DNA of 64,000 nucleotides from Dacryopinax spathularia (Eukaryota; Basidiomycota; Dacrymycetes; Dacrymycetales; Dacrymycetaceae): NCBI GenBank assembly GCA_037974965.1, contig JBBPFI010000010.1:868001-932000 (forward strand), in the 5' to 3' direction. Position 1 is the stretch's first letter; each line of letters begins with the position of its first letter. Position numbers and translations under genes: made by a program. The notes beneath the pieces are model-generated. The model ran no database searches and was not told the DNA's origin. It was given only the letters and a program-made list of their open reading frames with translations. Below, in pieces: positions 3,008-63,187 of this stretch.

Positions 3008-6000
3008 ATGTCTACCTCTCCTGCGCCAGGAGAGAGGAGGTCCGGACGCCAGAGGAAGCAGGTGAAACGTTACGAGGTCATCCCAGGTGAGTCGCGTCCC
3101 CTAGAAGCGGCTGCTGTAAGTTCGCCTTCTCCGGCATATACTTACGCGTTGAACAGGACTCAAGCGCAAGCGGACGGACGACACCGACGACACCCAGAAC
3201 TATCCAGAGGACGACGAGGGCCTTGACGGAGATGACGATCTTCTTGGGCTTGATGAAGACGAGGAAGATGAAGGTGAGGCGGACGTGAACGAGGATGATG
3301 AATATCAAGCACGGCGAACAGCACCAAAGGCCGTTAAAGCGCGCATCAACAAGAGTACCAAACCCATGGAGAAGGCTTCCGATGTTGGCCAAGCAGAATT
3401 GCCAAAGCGAAGAGGTCGTCCTAAAGTGGACGGAAACTCCAAAGTTCAGTCAAAGCCGAAAGCCAAAAAGGTCCGCCATGCTGGCGCGACCGGCATCAGT
3501 ACAGCGGTGAATGGAGAAGGTGCCACGGGGGGTATCAATACTGACAATCACTTGTTCAGTAAGTGGTGTTCGAAGCGCATATATGTAGGTTCTAGCAAGC
3601 TGACAACGAAAACAGACGCCCTCTTGAACCCTAGCAGCTCTTTGCAAAGTGTGGCTGATGACTTCCTCGAATCTCTGCGCGCATCCGCGCTACCGGCCCT
3701 TGCGGAGCTGATTACGATGGTTGTGCGCTGTTGTGGTGCCAACGCCGATATCACCATTGACGAAGTCAGTGATGAAGATGGCGTAGTCGGTGTGTGCGAG
3801 GACATTATGGAGGCCATCAAGCAGGCAAGATTGGTCTTTGTCGAGCGGAGGCACTGTTTTGACGACTTCTGCAGGCTCAAGCGCCCCCTTACCCCCTGAT
3901 ATCCCGACTCCCGACCTTGAAGCCGCTGCGCAAGGCGCTTGCCGCTTTCTTTGTTCACTTGGCGAAAGCTGCGCATACATCCGGCCAATTATACACGAGC
4001 GATCTTGTTCGAACATTGGTTTCTTGGCTAACCACAATGTCGTCGTCATCCTTGCGGTCCTTCCGTCATACCAGCACATACATCGCTGCTTGCGTGGTTG
4101 GTGGGCTGTGCCAAGTGGCGAACGAGCTGGAGAAGACCGTCAGCGTTGTTGGCCGGCAACGAGAGGCAGAAAAGAAGAAGAAAAAATCGGGCGCGGCCAA
4201 CGGCAATGATCCGCTAGAAAAGCGCTTTGCGGAGGTCAAAGAGAGACATAAGGCGATTTCAGAGCACATGAAGGATTTCTTTGATGGGTGCGTCTCGGCT
4301 GTTCTGTACAATGTCTCGCCTGCTCATCCGGGGCAGGATCTTCGTTCACCGCTACCGTGACTTTGATCCGGAGATCCGCGCCGAGTGTATGCATCAACTA
4401 GGCGCATGGATGAAAGCCTGCCCGTCATACTGGCTCGATGGCACGTATCTGCGGTATGCAGGATGGCTGCTCAGTGATTCGGTCAGTTGGCTAGCCTCAT
4501 AACCCAGCCTTTCGCTAAACTAGCTGTAGAGTATTCACGTTCGCCTCGAAGCCTTGAAGGCGTTGACACCATTGTACGAGGTCCCAGGTTCAACTGCTCT
4601 TCCCCATTTCACCGCGCGTTTCCTTCCACGCATCGTCCAAATCGCCACCAGCGACACCGATGTATCGGTTCGTTGCGCGGCACTGGGCCTGCTTACTGAG
4701 ATCGACGCCCATGATCTTTGGGGCGATGAGGCAGACGTTGGTGGCATCGACCGCGCAAAGGTCTGCCTGTTGATCTGGGACACCGAGCCCAGAGTTCGGC
4801 GGGCTGCCGGCCCGTTTTTCGCCAACGTTTGGGCAGAGCAGGTCCTGTCAGTCCTCGAAAGCCAGGGCCGAAAGAAGAAGGAATCAGACCAGGAAAGGAC
4901 GAAAATCGGAGCCAAACAGCTTGCCGCACTCTTGGTTCGACTCGAGACACTAGTCGACGAAGAAATGTCTCAATCGAGTGAGGAGCCTCAATCGGCCTAC
5001 ATCACTAGACAAGTATCGGCTCGGTTACCTGGGGCGCCTCAGGTTGAATCTCGCGTAGTTCTCGCTGTGGACGCGCTTTGGGCCCATCTCGACGCCGTTA
5101 GTGACTGGGAGTCCTTACTCGAATTGCTCCTTCTCGATCACACTATTGGCGATGACTCGAGTAGCCCAAGGAAGCGCAAGAAGGCCTTGAGGAAAGACTT
5201 AGCTCCCAGCAATAATGAGAGCGATGGAGAGGAGGCAGAAAAGGTTGATGATCGTTGGCGTTTGGATGAAAGAGAAGAGAGCCTACTGCTCGAAGTCTTC
5301 GGCACTAGCCTTGTCAAGGCGCTTGCTGAAGCAGAAGCAGATAAGAAGGTGAGCAGAGCACCTCTCATTTTAGGGTCTGCTACCGCCTGACAAGTGCACA
5401 GACAGGGCAGAGTGATGTGAAGAGAGACATCACGAGCGCGCTCATTCCCGCATTGCCCAAGCTTTTCGCCAAATATCAAACTGACGTGGGTCGTGTCGGT
5501 GATCTCGTCATGATTCCACGTCTTCTTGATCTGGACCAATACGTCGAACTACGGCAGACGCAGATGTACGAGCAACTGTGGGACGATTTGTCGCAGCAGT
5601 ATCTGAAGCACTCTGACCCTGCCTTGCTACGGAATGCCGTGAATACGATGACATATTTGTTGTCGTCGGGGTCGTCGCTTGCCAACATCAACGCCCGAAA
5701 AATATCTGAACTTGAGGACGAGCTGTTCTCTTCCCTCCGAGATGCTGTCGCGGGACGAGATGAGTTGGAATTGGCAAACTTTGAAGAGGACGAAATTCAA
5801 GCACTGGGAGCGGTAACGACCAGGCTCGCCTGCCTCTTCGCTTCCCGCGATTTGACAACCGGAATGGAGGAGGATGAAGGGGGCAAACAAAGCAGCGCGT
5901 GGGATATTCTTTGTGCCCTAGCGGAGCGCGGACGCTTGGGATACAGGGATGAGGAATTGGTTCGTTTTTCCTTACCCCGAGGATGAACCGCGTGCCTGAC

Positions 6001-15113: not shown

Positions 15114-15116
15114 AAT

Positions 15117-15130
15117 GGATGACTTCCCGT
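15117..15130 (+). repeat. Left terminal inverted repeat of the Harbinger element
   Basis: GGATGACTTCCCGT matches the reverse complement of 18042-18055 without mismatch; the match ends after 14 bp. The preceding AAT at 15114-15116 is the left copy of the putative target duplication. Confidence 0.85.
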
Positions 15131-15267
15131 GGCACAAAATCCCAGATGTACTTCCACCATCGGAAGCGGAATCCTAGATTTAGGATAAGACAGCTCACCG
15201 TCGCTTGCACCATACCCAGACCCATAATACCCAAATCCGACCTAGAACCCTGAATCCTACATTACAC

Positions 15268-16618
15268 ATGAACCACCTCATTCTTGACCGCTGGCAGACA
15301 GCGCTGGATGAAGACAACCTTGCGCAAGGTGATGATGAATACAGCAGTGATGATGAGCAAGTCCGGGATGCTGCTTTCCTTCTCTTGGTCCACCAGCAGA
15401 CCATCGCCATTGTTGCTGAAGAGCGAGCCTTGCGCAGGATGTACTTGACAAGACCGGATCTGCTACCCAATCCCCGTCACAACACACCCTTTCAGCAGGT
15501 GTTGCATAGTGAGAACGACCGTGCATACATTACAACAATGGGCCTCGATATCAAGACATTCCGCTACTTACTTGGCGCCGGGTTTGAGGAAGCATGGAAT
15601 TCAACACCTATCCTTCGGAATGATGTTGCGCGAGGTGCTGAGCCCAAAGTGTACCGGCGCTCTCTTGATGCAGCTGGTGCGCTTGGCCTTGTCTTGCATT
15701 GGCTAAACTCAACAATGCTTGACAAAACCCTTGCGCAAGTCTTTGCACTTGTCCCGGCAGTCATAGCAAGATATCGAAGCTTCGCACTCACCCTTCTTCT
15801 GCAAACTTTGCGCAAGGTACCTGAAGGTCGGATCTCCTGGCCAGCAACAAACGATGAGTTTGAAGCACTATCAGACCTCGTGTGCGCACGGCATCCGCTC
15901 TTAGAAGGTGCCTTTGGCTCTGTTGATGGACTGAATCTACCAACTGCGACTTCAAGTGATGAACGACTGCAGAACGCACAATATAATGGCTGGCTCCATG
16001 GTCATTACACTAGCAGTGTGATTGTATTTGCGGCTTCAGGTTGGTTCAACTGTGCGCATAGTCAATTATGCTCACCCTTGCGCAGGAGAGATCATCCATG
16101 CCGTGATCAATGCACCTGGTAGCTGGCATGATGCCCTTGTGGCTCGAAGCATCTATCGCAAACTTGAGACCAAGACACCTGAAGGCTTCTTCCTAGCAGC
16201 AGACACCGCATTCCCACATACACTGGCCTCCATTGCATCGAAGATACATACACCTGTGAAGACTGGCAGCTACACCACACGCGATGAGCTTCAAGTTATT
16301 GAACAACTGGTCTCTTTCCGCCAGTCAGCTGAGTGGGGGATGCGTGCAATACAAGGCTCCTTTGGACGCTTGCGACTTCCACTTGATGCCAACAATGCGC
16401 AAGGTCGGTCTCACCTCTTGGAAACTGCATTCCGCCTGCATCAAATCCGTGTGCGCCTGGTTGGTATAAACCAGCTCAAGAGTGTATACGAACCAATCTG
16501 GACCGAGACAAAGGAACTCAAGCAGACATGGAGTGGCATGCATAAAATGCTTTTCCCAGACATGCATAGGGCAGAGCGAGTTGCGCAATTTCATTACATC
16601 GAGGTACAAGACCAGTAG
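15268..16618 (+). CDS. PIF/Harbinger DDE transposase
   Basis: Transposase of about 434 residues with a DDE_Tnp_4-like (PIF/Harbinger) catalytic core. Exon 1 is 15268-16039 and exon 2 is 16086-16618; the intron keeps frame at FAASG-EIIHAVINAPG. Candidate catalytic residues are Asp in GSVDGLNL (about residue 218), Asp in APGSWHD (about 274) and Glu in RQSAEWGMRAIQGSFGRL. The N-terminus has an acidic stretch and a helix-rich region before the catalytic domain. The stop (16616-16618) is one nucleotide from the convergent stop of the partner gene (16620-16622). Nine copies of TGCGCA lie between the ATG and the stop, one overlapping the intron acceptor. Confidence 0.9.
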
Positions 16619-16619
16619 C

Positions 16620-17804
16620 CTATTGTCTATCTGGTGCAGCAGGAAGATTCATACCTTGCGCAAGGAATGCACCCACATTACCCATTCCCATCATCATGGC
16701 CCGCATCTGATCTTGCATTTCCATCCGTGCTTGTGCAACATCTAGCTGTCGCTGGACAGCAACCTGTGCCCGGGCATCTTCGACGAGTTTCATGCGCAAG
16801 TCTTCAATGATTTTATCCTTCTCCATCATCATCGCAACATGCTCTAGCTGCTTGTCACGGAGCTGAGACTGCAAAGAGGATATTTGTGCCTCATAGAGAT
16901 GTCGCTGGACCCGTGCCTCATCACGTCGCGCCTGAGTCTCTGGGTTAAATGCCTGGCTGACGTTGGCAAGAAGGGTGCTGGTGGATTCATGACGTGACTC
17001 GCTCTTCTTGACATGGCGCCGCTGTTTGACTAGGATGGGTTCACTGGCAGTACTGGGCATGGTCTGAAGATCACGGTGCGCAAGATCTCCTTGCGCAAGA
17101 TCACTTTGCGCAGAGTTGTTCATGCTTTCCTCATCAGAGGGGGGCCACACGATGCCATCGCTATCTTCATCTTGTAGGTCGACCATGTGAACATCATTCT
17201 GGATCTCTCGGTTGACATCCTTTGCCCGTGCAATGATGGCATGCATATGCGGGTTACCAGTTGGCTTAGGCATTCGAACCAGCTGAGACCAGGTAAGCAG
17301 AGATCTTGCGCAAGGTCAAACAGCGCGCACCATGTTAAATTTGCGCTTAATGCTCTCCTCTGTCCGATCTGCCATCCTTGCCCCAACCCAGAACTCCTTC
17401 ATTCCCTGCGCAACCTTCTCCCATCCACTCGACCCAATAGGCTTATGCAACTCAACCTCCTCAACCAACCGCAACAGCTCTGCATCTCCATACCCCTGTG
17501 CTCCGCTAGCACGTCCCTTTGCTTTCTTCAGTAGTGGCTCACCCTGCGCAGGGTTCTTCACAGGTCGACGCTTTTTGGATTGGGCCGGAGCTGGCGGGTC
17601 ATGCAAGGTAGATGAAGGAATAGGCGCGCTGATTGCCTCTGCAACAGTTGGCAAGAAGTCGTCATCCAGTTGGGATGAATGCACTGAGAGCGGACTATGG
17701 CTGTAAGGGCTCCCTCCAGACCAACTTTGCGCATGGAGCGTGGCTGGATGGGGGATGATATGTGGCAAGTACGTGGGTGAACTGCTGTTGTCGAGGTTAT
17801 CCAT
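16620..17804 (-). CDS. Myb/trihelix-like partner protein of the Harbinger element
   Basis: Two-exon gene of 378 residues: exon 1 17804-17331, exon 2 17282-16620, intron 17330-17283 (GT-AG, phase 0). The DNA-binding-like part reads SSGWEKVAQGMKEF, then RTEESIKRKFN-MLVRMPKPTG across the splice junction, a pattern seen in the second protein of basidiomycete Harbinger elements. Before it is a basic stretch (SKKRRPVKNP); after it are an acidic segment (DLQDEDSDGIVWPPSDEES) and a long predicted coiled coil (from about residue 270, many Gln/Arg/Met), suggesting oligomerisation. In animals the Myb-like partner helps bring the transposase to the nucleus and the element ends; the same job here is inference. 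Confidence 0.82.
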
Positions 17805-17910
17805 GGTGAGGTAGAGACCTTGCGCAAGGAGAGCACGGGTTGATGGGTGATGGGTTGAGATGCCGATGCGGCATGGTGCCTCCGCCTGGGTTTAGAACGC
17901 TGTTCCGAGT

Positions 17911-17938
17911 TAGAAGAGGGGGGGGTACCCCTCTTCTA
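17911..17938. repeat. Hairpin near the right end of the Harbinger element
   Basis: TAGAAGAGGGG and CCCCTCTTCTA form an 11-bp inverted repeat with a 6-nt spacer, in the untranslated right end of the element. Role unknown. Confidence 0.6.
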
Positions 17939-18008
17939 GATAACAAATTTAGGAGAGGCCCGGAGTTTGAATTTTTTCGGCATCCCCTCGGCATTGCGGT
18001 CTTGGCGC

Positions 18009-18026
18009 ATTTAGGTCGACCTAAAT
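18009..18026. repeat. 18-bp perfect palindrome in the right subterminal region
   Basis: ATTTAGGTCGACCTAAAT is a perfect palindrome 16 bp inside the right terminal repeat. Shorter ATTTAGG copies occur at about 15177 near the left end and TTTAGG at about 17949, so ATTTAGG may be a subterminal protein-binding half-site. Confidence 0.6.
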
Positions 18027-18041
18027 CGCTCCTAGATGTCG

Positions 18042-18055
18042 ACGGGAAGTCATCC
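18042..18055 (-). repeat. Right terminal inverted repeat of the Harbinger element
   Basis: ACGGGAAGTCATCC is the exact inverse of 15117-15130 and is followed by AAT at 18056-18058, the second copy of the target duplication. Confidence 0.85.
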
Positions 18056-18058
18056 AAT

Positions 18059-57770: not shown

Positions 57771-60346
57771 ATGCCGTCCGTGGCAAACAAAGCAGGCCCC
57801 TCGACCTTGAACAAGAAAAGCAAAGATGCTAAGAAGAAGCAGCTAGTCCACACAAAGCAAAGGCGGCGGCAAGAAGAAGAGCAAGCGCTCAAATCGCTCG
57901 AGCAGGCGGTCGAATCGTTCGTGCGTTCCTTGCCATCACTGGCACTTTTCACTTTCACTAAGAGTATACAGGATCCTTCATCAGCAGAGACCTTTGCCGA
58001 CTTCCCTTTATCTGCGCCTACAAAACGTGGCTTGCATAAGGCGGCATATACAACACCAACAGACATTCAAGCCCGCTCCCTCGCACACTCCCTACGCGGC
58101 CGGGATGTTCTCGGTGCTGCGCGCACCGGATCAGGCAAGACGCTTGCCTTCTTGCTTCCTGTGCTCGAGCTTCTCTGGCGGCGAAAATGGGGTCCGCAAG
58201 ATGGTCTTGGCGCGCTCATAATCTCACCCACTCGAGAGCTGGCGATGCAGATCTTTGAGGTGCTGAGGACTGTTGGGCAGTATCATACGTTCTCCGCTGG
58301 GTTAGTGATAGGAGGGAAGAATGTGAAGGACGAGCAGGAACGGCTACAGAGGATGAACATCCTCGTGGCTACGCCGGGAAGGCTGTTGCAGCATATGGAC
58401 CAAACGGCTGGGTTCGACGCGGATCATCTACAGATACTTGGTGAGTCAAATGACTTCTGCCTTGGTCTCGCGAGCTAATACAGTTTGTAGTCCTCGACGA
58501 GGCCGACCGAATACTGGACATGGGATTTGCTCGCACTCTCAACGCAATCGTCGAGAATCTCCCTAAATCACGCCAAACCCTGCTCTTCAGCGCAACTCAA
58601 ACCCAATCCGTCAAGGACCTGGCTCGGCTCTCGCTCAAAGATCCCGAATACGTCTCAGTACGCGATGCGAACCAGTCTGGGGCGACTCCGGCCAACCTAG
58701 AGGAGCACTATCTCGTCTGCGAACTGGATAAGAAGCTCGACGTGCTATATTCGTTCATCAAAGCACATCTGAAGGCGAAGATCCTCGTATTCATGAGCAG
58801 CGGGAAGCAAGTCCGCTTCGTTTTCGAGTCATTCCGCCGTTTGCAACCAGGTGTACCGCTGCTGCATCTTCTGGGCAAGCAGAAGCAGACGAAACGACTG
58901 GACATCTTCCAGCGTTTTACGAGCATGAACCACGCTGTGCTGTTCGCGACTGATATTGCCGCTCGCGGGCTGGATTTCCCGGCGGTAGACTGGGTTGTGC
59001 AGCTCGACGCACCAGAAGATGCCGAGACCTATATACACCGAGTTGGCCGAACAGCGCGGTACGACCGCGCTGGAAAAGCGCTACTCTTCCTCCTGCCAAG
59101 CGAAGAAGAAGGAATGCTCCGCGAACTAGAAAGGAAAGACGTCCACCCGCAGCGGATCAAGGTCAAGGAAAGCAAAACGACCAGCGTGGCGCAGAGTCTG
59201 CAGAGCTTCTGCTTCCAAGACCCCGAGATCAAGTACCTTGGCCAGCGCGCATTCGTCAGTTACCTGAGGAGCGTATGGCTGCAGAAGAACAAGGAGGTGT
59301 TCAAGCTTGACGAGCTGCCGATCAAGCGGTTTGCGGCTGCTTTGGGCTTGCCGGGCGCTCCAAGGATTAGGTTCGCGAAGGCTGGAAGGGAGGAGGCGAA
59401 GAGGCGGAAGAATGCGAGTCGGGCTATCAAGGGGAGTGATGATGAGGGAGGATCGGCGGGAGAAGAGGATGAGGAGGAAGGGATGAGCGATGGAAGCAGC
59501 AATGGTGGTGCACCTGAGGGCGATGAAGAGAGGGCAGCCGCTCGTGCCGAGTTCGCTGCTGCAGCCGCTGAGGTGTCTGGCGAAGACTCGTCCGCACCGG
59601 CAGCAGGCAAGGCCAAACCCACCGTACGGACGAAATACGATCGGATGTTCGAGCGCAAGAACCAGGGCATTCTTTCCGAGCACTATACCAAGCTTGTAGA
59701 CCACACGGTCGACGGCGACCTAAACGACTCGGAAGACTTCATCACCCTGAAGCGGGTCGACCATTCCCTCGAGGACCTCGATGCAGCCGAGCGAGCGGCA
59801 CACGAGCTAAGCAAGCGTAAGCTCAAGATCGGCCAGAGCAAGAAGGCGATGCTCCGGTACAAGCCTGTTGCCGGCCAGAAGCTTGTCTTTGATGAAGAGA
59901 CTGGCGAGGCCAGGCCAGCGTACGAGATCAAGGATGAGGAGACCTTCCGTGCGGCTGGGGATCCTCTGGCTCAAGGATGGGAGTTTGCGAATAAGGAGAG
60001 AGAGCAGTTGAAGGAGATTGACAAGGTTGATAAGGAGGTTGCGAGGGAGAAGAAACGGGAGAAGAAGAGGAAGAGGAAGGAGCGGGAGCGGGAGCTTGCC
60101 GGGCTTGAGAGGGAGGTTGGAGGTGCGGTGGCTGTTGTTGGAGATGGGGAGGAGGTGGATGATGGATATGTCAGTCCGGACTTTGGGTTCCTCTCTGGTG
60201 GAGATGACGAGGAAGGGGAGAGGTTCGAGGAGAGACCAGCCAAGAAACGCAAGAAGGGCAGGCGCGAGCAGGAAGATGCTTACGATGCAGGGGACTTAGA
60301 GGCTCAGGAGGCGCTCGCCCTCAAGTTATTGCAGGGTGGTCTATAA
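57771..60346 (+). CDS. DBP4: DEAD-box RNA helicase DBP4
   Basis: Nucleolar ATP-dependent RNA helicase used in 18S rRNA processing and release of snoRNAs (U14) from pre-rRNA. About 841 residues; exons 57771-58440 and 58491-60346, the intron ending just before the DEAD codons. Motifs in order: Q motif [18 protein letters not shown], Ia PTRELAMQ, Ib [68 protein letters not shown]. The downstream block [20 protein letters not shown] with [12 protein letters not shown] is typical of the DBP4/DDX10 clade. A long charged C-terminus, including basic [15 protein letters not shown], fits DDX10 relatives. Confidence 0.96.
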
Positions 60347-60500
60347 CTGTAACTATACTAGTATTGTTGAGCTTTCATGTTAATTTGCGGCATGTTCATA
60401 CTTCAAGACTTCCTCGCGCGATCAGCCGCAGAAGCCGCACCACAAATGCAGTAGGGTCCGATGACGTCGCGCCCTCTTTTGACCTGCGGCTTGGCGTGAG

Positions 60501-60622
60501 TATGAGGTGATTTATGGGACAAAATGCGGAGCTCAGCGGACTTCACTCGATTTGCATTCGCTTTTGACTCCATTTTCGTTCCCGTTGCACTCCTCATTCC
60601 GATTTCACTCCCTACTCACTCC
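60501..60622 (+). repeat. Left 122-bp inverted repeat arm
   Basis: Identical, as reverse complement, to 60814-60935 over all 122 bases; the match stops where the left arm continues CTACTCACTCCC and the right arm complement reads TTAATCACTG. Confidence 0.88.
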
Positions 60623-60813
60623 CTACTCACTCCCTCCATCCCGTCCTCACTCTCTAGCTCACTCCGTTTGCACTCTATGTTCACTCGAGGGAGTGAGACT
60701 TGATAATCCAACAAAATTACAGTGGTTTTAGAGTGACAACGTAGTGATTATGGAAAGATTAAGGAGTGAAAACAGAGCGGGAAGCGAGTGTAAACAGAGT
60801 GAACAGTGATTAA

Positions 60814-60935
60814 GGAGTGAGTAGGGAGTGAAATCGGAATGAGGAGTGCAACGGGAACGAAAATGGAGTCAAAAGCGAATGCAAATCGAGTGAAGTCCGC
60901 TGAGCTCCGCATTTTGTCCCATAAATCACCTCATA
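60814..60935 (-). repeat. Right 122-bp inverted repeat arm
   Basis: Exact inverse of 60501-60622, followed by the second CGTGAG. Confidence 0.88.
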
Positions 60936-61137
60936 CGTGAGCCTGAGGAGCAGGGGACCGCCCGGTTGACAGGGATATGTCGCAGAGCAAGCAGAGACGG
61001 TGCTGGCGGCTTGCCCTCGTCCACCTTTGTACAATAATCCCCCTCCTCTGCACCAACGACCCATCAAGGCTGCCCGGTACTATATAGCCGATCACTAGGC
61101 GCCCTCAGGAGACACCACGCGCTGCTAAACGGACAGG

Positions 61138-61796
61138 ATGGACACCTTCTGCCAATCGATCTGGGAGCCAATAATGTGGCAAAGTACGTCCTCATCCTCC
61201 CCATCTCCCCATCTCCCCATCTCCCCATCTTCCCTCCCCACCGCACAATCCCGGGTAACCCGCTAACGCACTCTCGGCAGACGCAACAGGAGCCAAAGGC
61301 TGCAACGCCTGCTGTGCGCGCTGTCCTGGCCCATGCGGACAAAAAGGGTTCGATGAAGATCAGTGGGATGAGGAGGAGAAGCGGGAACGGGAGGCTGCGC
61401 GCGCCCAGGCGGGAGCGGGAGCGGGAGCTAGTGTGGAAGAGCAGCCTGTGGGGAGGGGTATGGTTTTGCCTTCTGCTGCTGGTCCTGTGGGGCAAGAGGC
61501 GGGTGAAGAGGCAAGAGGAGTGGGGGTGGGCGATGAGAGGGAGACGACTGTCCAGCAGGCTGGGGCTACGGGAGGAGAGGGAGGTGAGCGATAGATCATG
61601 CTTTGACAGGATGGGATGGGTATATATTGGTATGTCACTAAATACGATTATTTCCAGCTCGTACTAACACAAGCTGCAGGACTTGGATCGTGCTATGTAT
61701 TGGATATTTTATCGGATGTATGGACTGGACTATTGCGACAATCGAGCACGACGTTTGCTACAAGATGAGGCCCCATGTTGCATGGTAGCGGCGCCT
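61138..61796 (+). CDS. Small protein with a cysteine motif, unrecognised
   Basis: Exon 1 is 61138-61183 (MDTFCQSIWEPIMWQ) and exon 2 starts at 61281 after an intron that contains four copies of CCATCTCC. The junction gives QNATGAKGCNACCARCPGPC, a tight cluster of cysteines, followed by an acidic then Ala/Gly-rich region (DEDQWDEEEKRERE, AGAGAGAS). The 3' end is uncertain: exon 2 appears to end near 61588 at GTGAGC, and the segment from 61681, DLDRAMYWIFYRMYGLDYCD to a stop at about 61820, looks coding, but joining them needs an intervening piece or another donor. It could be a membrane-anchored or metal-binding peptide; I do not assign a function. Confidence 0.5.
61201..61230 (+). repeat. CCATCTCC microsatellite in an intron
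   Basis: Nearly four copies of the 8-mer CCATCTCC in tandem inside the first intron of the small cysteine-motif gene. Confidence 0.7.
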
Positions 61797-61829
61797 GACG
61801 ACGTAGACGACCTGGGATGACCTTTTGCC

Positions 61830-63187
61830 AAAGCGGCTGGCCGACGCGACATGATTTTGGCATTCGTTGTGTGAATGCCATTCGAGTGCCGCTGCAACAT
61901 CGCAAAAGGGGCCGCCTTGTACTACAACAATGTGGATGTTACCACGCTGTGAGGCGTAGTGAAGGCGCCTTTTCCAGCACGAGCCAACTATTTCCAGCTA
62001 TGTCGGATTTGGGAATTGTGATAACCGGCCTCGCTTCAATCTTCCAGCCAAGGCCGCATCAACCGGTTGTAGCTTTCATGATCAGTTACAGTCGTACCCC
62101 CGATTAACAATGGGGTTCCGTCCGAGCATAAGTGATTGCTATTGGGGGGCGATTTTTATGAAGGGGTTACCTTGGAGCCGACAGTTTTTCCGACTGGATG
62201 AAATTGTAGTCAAGAGCACGTGAGATTGTCTAGAGATCCATGTTTTGCGAGCATAAAAGGTTTTATTGCAAACATAGGCTGATCGGAAGACTTATCTGCA
62301 GAAAGTGCCACTTGCTAAGCGCACAGGAGACTTAACATAGCCCGGATTGCTCCCGAAATTACCATATTAAGCAGACTTTGGGAAGCAAAAGCACCCCTTG
62401 ATAGCAATATTGGGTGGGGACTTTCGCAGGATAGTGATGGTTTATGGTTAACAAGGGGTGATTGTTATCATCATAGGGACTTTACTATGTACCGACTGGG
62501 GCCGGCTCAAATCCGATGTTAAAGCGGGGGTGATGCTTAATTGGCGGTATAGTTAACGGGGGGCGCGACTGTATCTTGTCCGACTGCTCGACTTACGCTA
62601 AGGCTTCCGGCTCCCGCGTTAAGAGTAAGCCGGTTCAAGGTTCAAGGTTGTGGCTGCTGCGCAACGGATGTGGACGTGAACTTTGCGATCGGAGGTGCCT
62701 TGCCTTTGAGGGCGGAAGTCAGTTTCCAAGGCTAGAGGAATATTCACCGCGTGTCAGACCCGTCTGCCAAAGGGTCTTTCAGACCCTTGCAGATCACCTG
62801 ACGATGCTTAGGGTAGGATTATCATGTTTTCTTTCCTATCTCGGCGCAAGGCTTTTTTAAACGGAGTTTTATATACTATCCTATGCCCTAGACTAGATAT
62901 CCTATGCTAATTTAGATAGGCTAGATAATATATACTTATTAACAAAAGATGGGCCAGGCCTCCTTTTTTACTCAGTCTAGGGTATCACCGGTAATATTCC
63001 CAGAATATCTAAATGAGAGTACAGCCCATCTACCTTACCAGCGATCCAGCTTATTGCAGAAGACCTACGCGGATCTCTGCTTTTTTCTCCCCCTACGGTT
63101 TTCTCGCCCATATAACCCTCTGCTACCTCCCCGTCCCAGCCCATACCTCCTTCGTCTCTTCCTCCTTCGCTCACTCCTCCTTCCGAC
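61830..63187. other. Gene-poor, AT-richer stretch
   Basis: About 1.35 kb with no supportable gene. Between about 62820 and 62950 it is markedly AT-rich with repeated CTAGA/TAGATA words. Degenerate repeats of ATTGCTAT/ATAGCAAT occur at about 62128, 62402 and (as ATTGTTAT) 62461, and GGTTCAA is duplicated at about 62633-62647. It may be an eroded transposon, but I cannot find ends. Confidence 0.4.

Follow-up and report, generated by a model that had tools for sequence, protein, structure and literature searches.

Why a single transposon should carry nineteen copies of the palindrome TGCGCA, most of them inside its two genes, is the question raised by an element found in the 64,000-nucleotide stretch of the Dacryopinax spathularia genome analysed here (hereafter the window). 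An earlier note on this DNA described these copies in a Harbinger transposon and proposed that its coding sequence had been bent to carry a dispersed array of binding sites, either for the transposase, for its Myb-like partner or for a host silencing factor. The comparisons of sequence reported below indicate that the array very probably consists of protein-binding sites maintained by selection, whereas the protein that reads them and the benefit that they bring are proposed with less confidence.

An array written into two genes

The element (Table 1) ends in perfect TIRs and is flanked by 3-bp TSDs, which in the three copies of its family are AAT, ATT and AGT, that is, A-N-T; the usual TSD of PIF/Harbinger elements is TWA. 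Its transposase matches the HARBI1-type family DDE_Tnp_4 (PF13359) at E 1.4e-09 and 38.2 bits, over the cut-off of 24.8, and the position and size of the other gene fit the second gene of Harbingers. The Myb-like protein encoded by this second gene gave weak Pfam matches, both below cut-off, to PF00249 (E 0.014) and DUF6818 (E 0.029), a PDB sequence search with its exon 1 returned no match, and its C-terminal part has by eye the appearance of a coiled coil. Both gene models were derived from homology and splice rules, with no transcripts.

Table 1. Features of the array-bearing element, in window coordinates; H3 and H16 are its two full-length relatives in the genome.
Feature	Coordinates	Strand	Remarks
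TGCGCA array-bearing Harbinger-type transposon	15117..18055		2,939 bp; TIRs and TSD; two full-length genomic relatives
TSD AAT, left	15114..15116		
Left TIR GGATGACTTCCCGT	15117..15130	+	perfect 14-bp TIR
Right TIR	18042..18055	-	perfect 14-bp TIR
TSD AAT, right	18056..18058		
Transposase gene	15268..16618	+	exons 15268-16039, 16086-16618; 434 aa; DDE_Tnp_4 over cut-off
Transposase intron, 46 bp	16040..16085	+	2 sites inside; coincides with gap relative to L016 transposase
Myb-like gene	16620..17804	-	exons 17804-17322, 17282-16620; 381 aa
Myb-like intron, 39 bp	17283..17321	-	1 site inside
Site 1 TGCGCA	15321..15326		transposase exon 1; kept in H3 and H16
Site 2 TGCGCA	15431..15436		transposase exon 1; kept in H3 and H16
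Site 3 TGCGCA	15732..15737		transposase exon 1; kept in H3 and H16
Site 4 TGCGCA	15809..15814		transposase exon 1; kept in H3 and H16
Site 5 TGCGCA	15883..15888		transposase exon 1; window copy only
Site 6 TGCGCA	16053..16058		transposase intron; kept in H3
Site 7 TGCGCA	16079..16084		transposase intron acceptor; kept in H3 and H16
Site 8 TGCGCA	16396..16401		transposase exon 2; kept in H3 and H16
Site 9 TGCGCA	16582..16587		transposase exon 2; window copy only
Site 10 TGCGCA	16657..16662		Myb-like exon 2; kept in H3 and H16
Site 11 TGCGCA	16793..16798		Myb-like exon 2; kept in H3 and H16
Site 12 TGCGCA	17077..17082		Myb-like exon 2; kept in H3 and H16
Site 13 TGCGCA	17092..17097		Myb-like exon 2; kept in H16
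Site 14 TGCGCA	17107..17112		Myb-like exon 2; kept in H3
Site 15 TGCGCA	17307..17312		Myb-like intron; kept in H3
Site 16 TGCGCA	17407..17412		Myb-like exon 1; kept in H3 and H16
Site 17 TGCGCA	17545..17550		Myb-like exon 1; kept in H3 and H16
Site 18 TGCGCA	17728..17733		Myb-like exon 1; kept in H3 and H16
Site 19 TGCGCA	17821..17826		upstream of Myb-like start; kept in H3 and H16

All nineteen positions listed in the earlier note proved exact. The other 61.1 kb of the window contain 20 further copies (0.33/kb), a rate from which 0.96 would be expected in the 2,939 bp of the element (Poisson P 1.6e-18), and base composition alone predicts 0.77. Likewise, the statement that the motif disappears outside the element holds to the extent that elsewhere in the window its frequency is that of background, with the nearest copies at 3970 and 20584. 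Codon shuffling, which had been set beforehand as a possible refutation, left the array standing: the 7 sites of the transposase CDS compare with a mean of 1.04 and a maximum of 4 in shuffled sequences, the 8 sites of the Myb-like CDS with a mean of 1.11 and a maximum of 6, and none of 3,000 shuffles attained the observed count in either gene. Dinucleotide shuffles of the entire element (n=300) gave a mean of 2.99 and a maximum of 10 against 38 observed two-strand hits (19 sites).

By place, 15 sites lie in coding exons, two in the transposase intron, one in the Myb-like intron and one upstream of the Myb-like start, and the description of a site at an intron acceptor is also correct, the last A of site 7 being common with the acceptor AG. 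Exon sites fall mostly in codon phase 2 (11 of 15; xxT GCG CAx, giving Ala-Gln or Ala-His), with three in phase 1 and one in phase 0, so that the motif seems to be placed where the protein tolerates it. The claim that many sites extend to the 12-mer CCTTGCGCAAGG was overstated, as 3 of the 19 do so exactly (6 extend to CTTGCGCAAG and 8 to TTGCGCAA), but the flank consensus behind it, ACCT/AGGT, is real. An origin by chance, by codon or amino-acid bias, or through tandem duplication or the insertion of small palindromes is the least probable of the explanations considered here and is refuted by these tests together with the alignment described below. Leu-Ala-Gln does recur in the proteins, yet the codon shuffles, the occurrence of the motif in three codon phases and the intron sites stand against such an origin; codon bias or protein repeats are ruled out by the shuffles together with the intron sites.

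Retention of the sites in related copies

The 29.2-Mb genome holds two full-length relatives of the window element, H3 (81.5% identical) and H16 (80.5%), which are 97.9% identical to each other. H3 retains 16 of the 19 window sites and H16 retains 14; H3 has 19 sites in total, three of them at positions other than those of the window copy. None of the 22 site columns in the three-copy alignment contains a gap. Sites therefore come and go via substitution, and the same observation rules out insertion of a mobile palindrome and speaks against duplication. Compared with 16/19 for the sites, retention between the window copy and H3 falls to 27.8% for other hexamers and 20.6% for CpG-containing hexamers. 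CpGs of the window copy are retained in H3 at 16 of 19 positions inside sites versus 70 of 116 outside (P 0.036), and in the reverse direction those of H3 are retained in the window copy at 18 of 19 versus 68 of 123 (P 0.0005). CpG decay works against the motif, a further argument against chance or bias. These comparisons demonstrate, at the level of aligned copies, that the sites have been retained by selection on the DNA within coding sequence. Together with the shuffles, the conservation of the hexamers gives good support to the proposal that coding sequence was bent to carry a dispersed binding-site array, and the free loss of the motif among related copies that had been named as another refutation was not seen, either in H3 or in Helitrons, where the hexamers are kept above the rate of CpG hexamers (see below).

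H16 (L015, C16:255330-258262) is a broken copy with frameshifts and stops. CpG transitions account for 23 of its 41 own changes and for none of the 11 of intact H3 (P 6e-4), which suggests a methylation-type decay of silent copies, and the three sites lost in H16 but kept in H3 all changed via CpG transitions. The CpG in the core and the apparent CpG decay of silent copies would both fit a host that marks the elements, the motif being the recognition site of a silencing or methylating factor. Elements should nevertheless shed such sites, yet intact copies retain them against CpG decay in the proportions given above, whereas three decayed in the broken copy. The host silencing factor put forward in the earlier note is therefore disfavoured, and we consider this explanation very improbable.

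One core, several flanks and a rewritten motif

A genome search for CCTTGCGCAAGG returned 14 sites, 13 of them within array-bearing elements, namely the three window-family copies, a second Harbinger family (L017) and three Helitrons (on C2, C4 and C12). L017, at C10:592.7-595.5 kb, has inverted repeats, a TAA duplication, DDE_Tnp_4 and a Myb_DNA-bind_3 partner, and blastp of its ORFs against the other elements gave no match below 1e-3. Two more Helitrons, on C1 and C8 (the latter covered in part), and a MULE on C2 carry the same TGCGCA core within other flanks. Site density in array elements is 4.7-7.4 sites/kb versus a background of 0.34 sites/kb (113 kb), values somewhat favoured in Helitrons and the MULE by limits set by eye from the first and last sites. 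Hence the array claimed for a Harbinger is real but not exclusive to Harbingers, as the same core in five Helitrons and a MULE family makes it a wider trait; with ~1% of the genome sequence and 6 of 45 Helitron matches covered, the numbers of arrays and codes are lower bounds. It is not general either, since one other Helitron had a single TGCGCA, and no clear alternative motif, in the 2 kb sampled, and 15 further Harbinger loci held none of the 14 CCTTGCGCAAGG sites of the genome-wide 12-mer search.

A k-mer scan of the other fetched loci revealed no further convincing array and weak signals at L034 and L041, and a genome search for three sites within ~90 bp yielded 6 hits versus 14 for the reversed control. 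At L034 (C5:1547000-1556500) a solitary right end of this transposon family is surrounded by a weak local enrichment of the words CATGCG, CATGTA and CCAAGG, possibly another code or a simple repeat. In the window itself, GAGTGA and CACTCC are locally in excess at 59000-62000 (2-kb windows).

Conservation of the sites extends to Helitrons. HELc4 and HELc2, whose coding DNA is 58.6% identical, have 16 of 27 hexamers identical at matching columns versus 5.8% of CpG hexamers (P 1.3e-13), and HELc4 and HELc12 share 13 of 18 versus 8.1%. Helitron A and B share 4 of 26 sites in one comparison (CpG hexamers 4.3%, P 0.024) and 6 of 26 in another (CpG hexamers 2.7%, P 6e-5). Because this sharing still exceeds the CpG-hexamer rate, a few site positions are old; the majority differ, with density remaining high.

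The core is thus common to several DNA-transposon superfamilies, and its flanks are specific to the element family. Immediately 5' of the core the consensus is A-C-C-T in Harbingers, (G/T)-T-C-T in Helitron A (with C at -2 in 94-99%), A-G-C-C in Helitron B and A-G-G-C in the MULE, background TGCGCA showing weak preferences only (sites 5 bases or less from a stretch edge are omitted from these counts). Thirteen of the 14 occurrences of AGCCTGCGCAGGCT lie in or beside the two Helitron-B elements, and 16 of the 17 of AGGCTGCGCAGCCT at the family's three MULE loci, one of which was read. One relative among the Harbingers, L016 (C2:1389.6-1392.7 kb), shares the window TIR apart from one mismatch and is flanked by an AGT duplication; compared with the proteins of the window element, its transposase is 66-68% identical and its Myb-like partner 43%. 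Its 3,063 bp contain 2 TGCGCA but 34 CCAGYA, 17 per strand, versus a mean of 4.3 and a maximum of 11 in the shuffle control (n=300). Co-evolution of reader and motif would yield such a rewriting, although one case is insufficient as proof.

The main rival to a coat encoded by the elements is a host factor with a TGCGCA core: one DNA-binding factor, or a small host family, would read the motif, and elements would exploit it as an activator or chromatin opener. The occurrence of the same core in three superfamilies, with no gene common to all motif-bearing elements found by blastp of their ORFs, speaks for it, as does the single flank code that goes with two unlike Myb partners, those of the window family and of L017 (Myb_DNA-bind_3). 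Against it, the flank codes conflict between families and are near-exclusive, and the L016 relative has switched to CCAGYA; we regard a host reader as unlikely, though deserving of serious attention.

The only gene common to Helitrons and the MULE in the blastp comparison is RPA70-like; the MULE gene is related to that of Helitrons, and the gene is also found near Helitrons outside the motif-scored set. In the MULE-type family (L029, C2:92000-100500, also at C2:1459007 and C1:2277783) it gives Rep_fac-A_C matches just under cut-off. The RPA70-like gene would accord with a structural or single-strand function of the sites, as hairpins or in RPA loading during rolling-circle movement. The flanks of 185 Helitron-A and 136 Helitron-B sites nevertheless match no oftener than expected, being independent of each other in B and, with the exception of one near-invariant position (0.95 vs 0.93, P 0.002), in A, and the two Harbinger families move double-stranded and contain no RPA match. 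Such a function is scarcely credible, and was rejected on the absence of general flank covariation in Helitrons. Flanks are correlated at one position in Harbingers (38 sites) and at two in the MULE (22 sites).

Candidate readers of the array and comparison with known systems

Sites in array elements follow one another at mean intervals of 133-218 bp. Their spacing is more regular than random in each of the five Helitrons (P 0.0008 or less) and in all three Harbinger copies of the window family (P 0.015-0.042), but not in L017 (P 0.41) or the MULE (P 0.82), the limits of Helitrons and the MULE being again those set by eye. No TGCGCA lies within 204 bp of one end of the window element or 229 bp of the other, nor in three MITEs with its TIR, which argues against end recognition and disfavours the transposase binding that the earlier note had envisaged. 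These MITE-like elements, of 373-374 bp, lie at L032:5568-5941, L033:6741-7113 and L035:6276-6648. The sites might still serve transposition by recruiting the Myb-like protein or the transposase to element DNA, or by folding the DNA into a complex. Zebrafish Harbinger3_DR, a two-gene Harbinger, has a Myb-like DNA-binding partner which is reported to bind a short motif of 9 bp in subterminal position (PMC9710019; cf. PMC4055405). In the window element, by contrast, the motif fills the body and leaves some 200 bp free at either side (first site 204 bp and last site 229 bp from the respective end); with the site-free MITEs, and with the same core in Helitrons, which move by other chemistry, this makes a role in transposition improbable.

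Overall, the arrays may consist of dyad-symmetric sites to which dimeric proteins bind as a coat on the element, with anti-silencing as the likeliest purpose, a reading of the sequence that we prefer tentatively. A dimeric, sequence-specific DNA-binding protein would occupy the short dyad-symmetric TGCGCA sites along the transposon body through paired half-sites, which are favoured by the largely independent flanks in Helitrons. Its gene would probably be carried by the element itself. In Harbingers the candidate is the Myb-like protein, whose role as binder, already suggested in the earlier note, we consider possible, if somewhat less assured than the coat, and unproved. A PDB sequence search with one exon of the Helitron second gene returned one insignificant match. 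At roughly nucleosome-scale spacing, the protein coat would keep the element clear of silent chromatin and CpG methylation, as VANC does for VANDAL. Anti-silencing as the main benefit, argued partly by analogy and likewise held tentatively, is favoured by selection across the whole body, independence from transposition chemistry, the CpG decay of a dead copy and the VANC precedent; an RdRP and a DNA-methylase-family locus, both present in the genome, were also counted in its favour. Matches to DNA methylase (PF00145) occur in the genome at C7:158032-163878 only, in five pieces that may be two neighbouring genes. Points against the coat are that blastp found no common protein, that two Myb types go with one flank code, that one Helitron is arrayless (2 kb), that spacing is no more even than random in L017 and the MULE, and that some flank positions are correlated in Harbingers and the MULE.

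In Arabidopsis, VANC target motifs of VANDAL elements are dense, family-specific and different among relatives (PMC5735166, PMC10398659), and the VANC21 motif is non-palindromic, mainly non-coding, in one orientation and often in tandem repeats (PMC5735166). The likeness lies in a dense short motif within one transposon family, whose density seems to matter and for which co-evolution of protein and motif has been proposed (PMC5735166, PMC10398659), and a dense family-specific motif that differs between related elements is found here as well. The TGCGCA motif, unlike that of VANC21, is palindromic and has entered coding sequence by way of substitution, and its core recurs in three superfamilies; instead of non-coding tandem repeats, 15/19 window sites are exonic and site columns are free of gaps. 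Fungal DNA transposons of several superfamilies, including Harbinger and Helitron, are reported to carry TET/JBP genes as an apparent anti-silencing device (PMC12730594); this is a captured gene, whereas the TGCGCA array is a cis motif. A Pfam scan of 52 ORF translations (a subset of element ORFs) contained neither a VANC-type domain nor a TET/JBP dioxygenase gene. Among the open-access literature matches listed, none describes dispersed TGCGCA-like arrays in Harbingers or Helitrons. Bacterial DNA uptake sequences and HIP1 are short motifs that run at high density through coding sequence, genome-wide; the TGCGCA array differs in being confined, as far as sequence was covered, to certain transposons of a eukaryote.

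A more speculative extension is that of a cis-acting 'passport' code. Unrelated DNA-transposon superfamilies of a single genome would have converged on, or exchanged, the TGCGCA core, running through their coding sequence at nucleosome scale, and a diversifying set of dimeric proteins would read the family flanks, so that each family would mark and de-silence its own copies only; L016 would be an instance of such a code being rewritten. The four flank codes around a shared core, and the rewritten one, each belong to a particular family of elements and would make a testable system, in which the reader protein, its preference among flanks and its influence on chromatin are open to measurement. 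They also call for caution, as conserved stretches in transposon genes may not reflect protein function. If our reading is true, dispersed binding sites can constrain protein-coding sequence itself, and anti-silencing by such sites would not be a speciality of plant MULEs but a wider transposon strategy.
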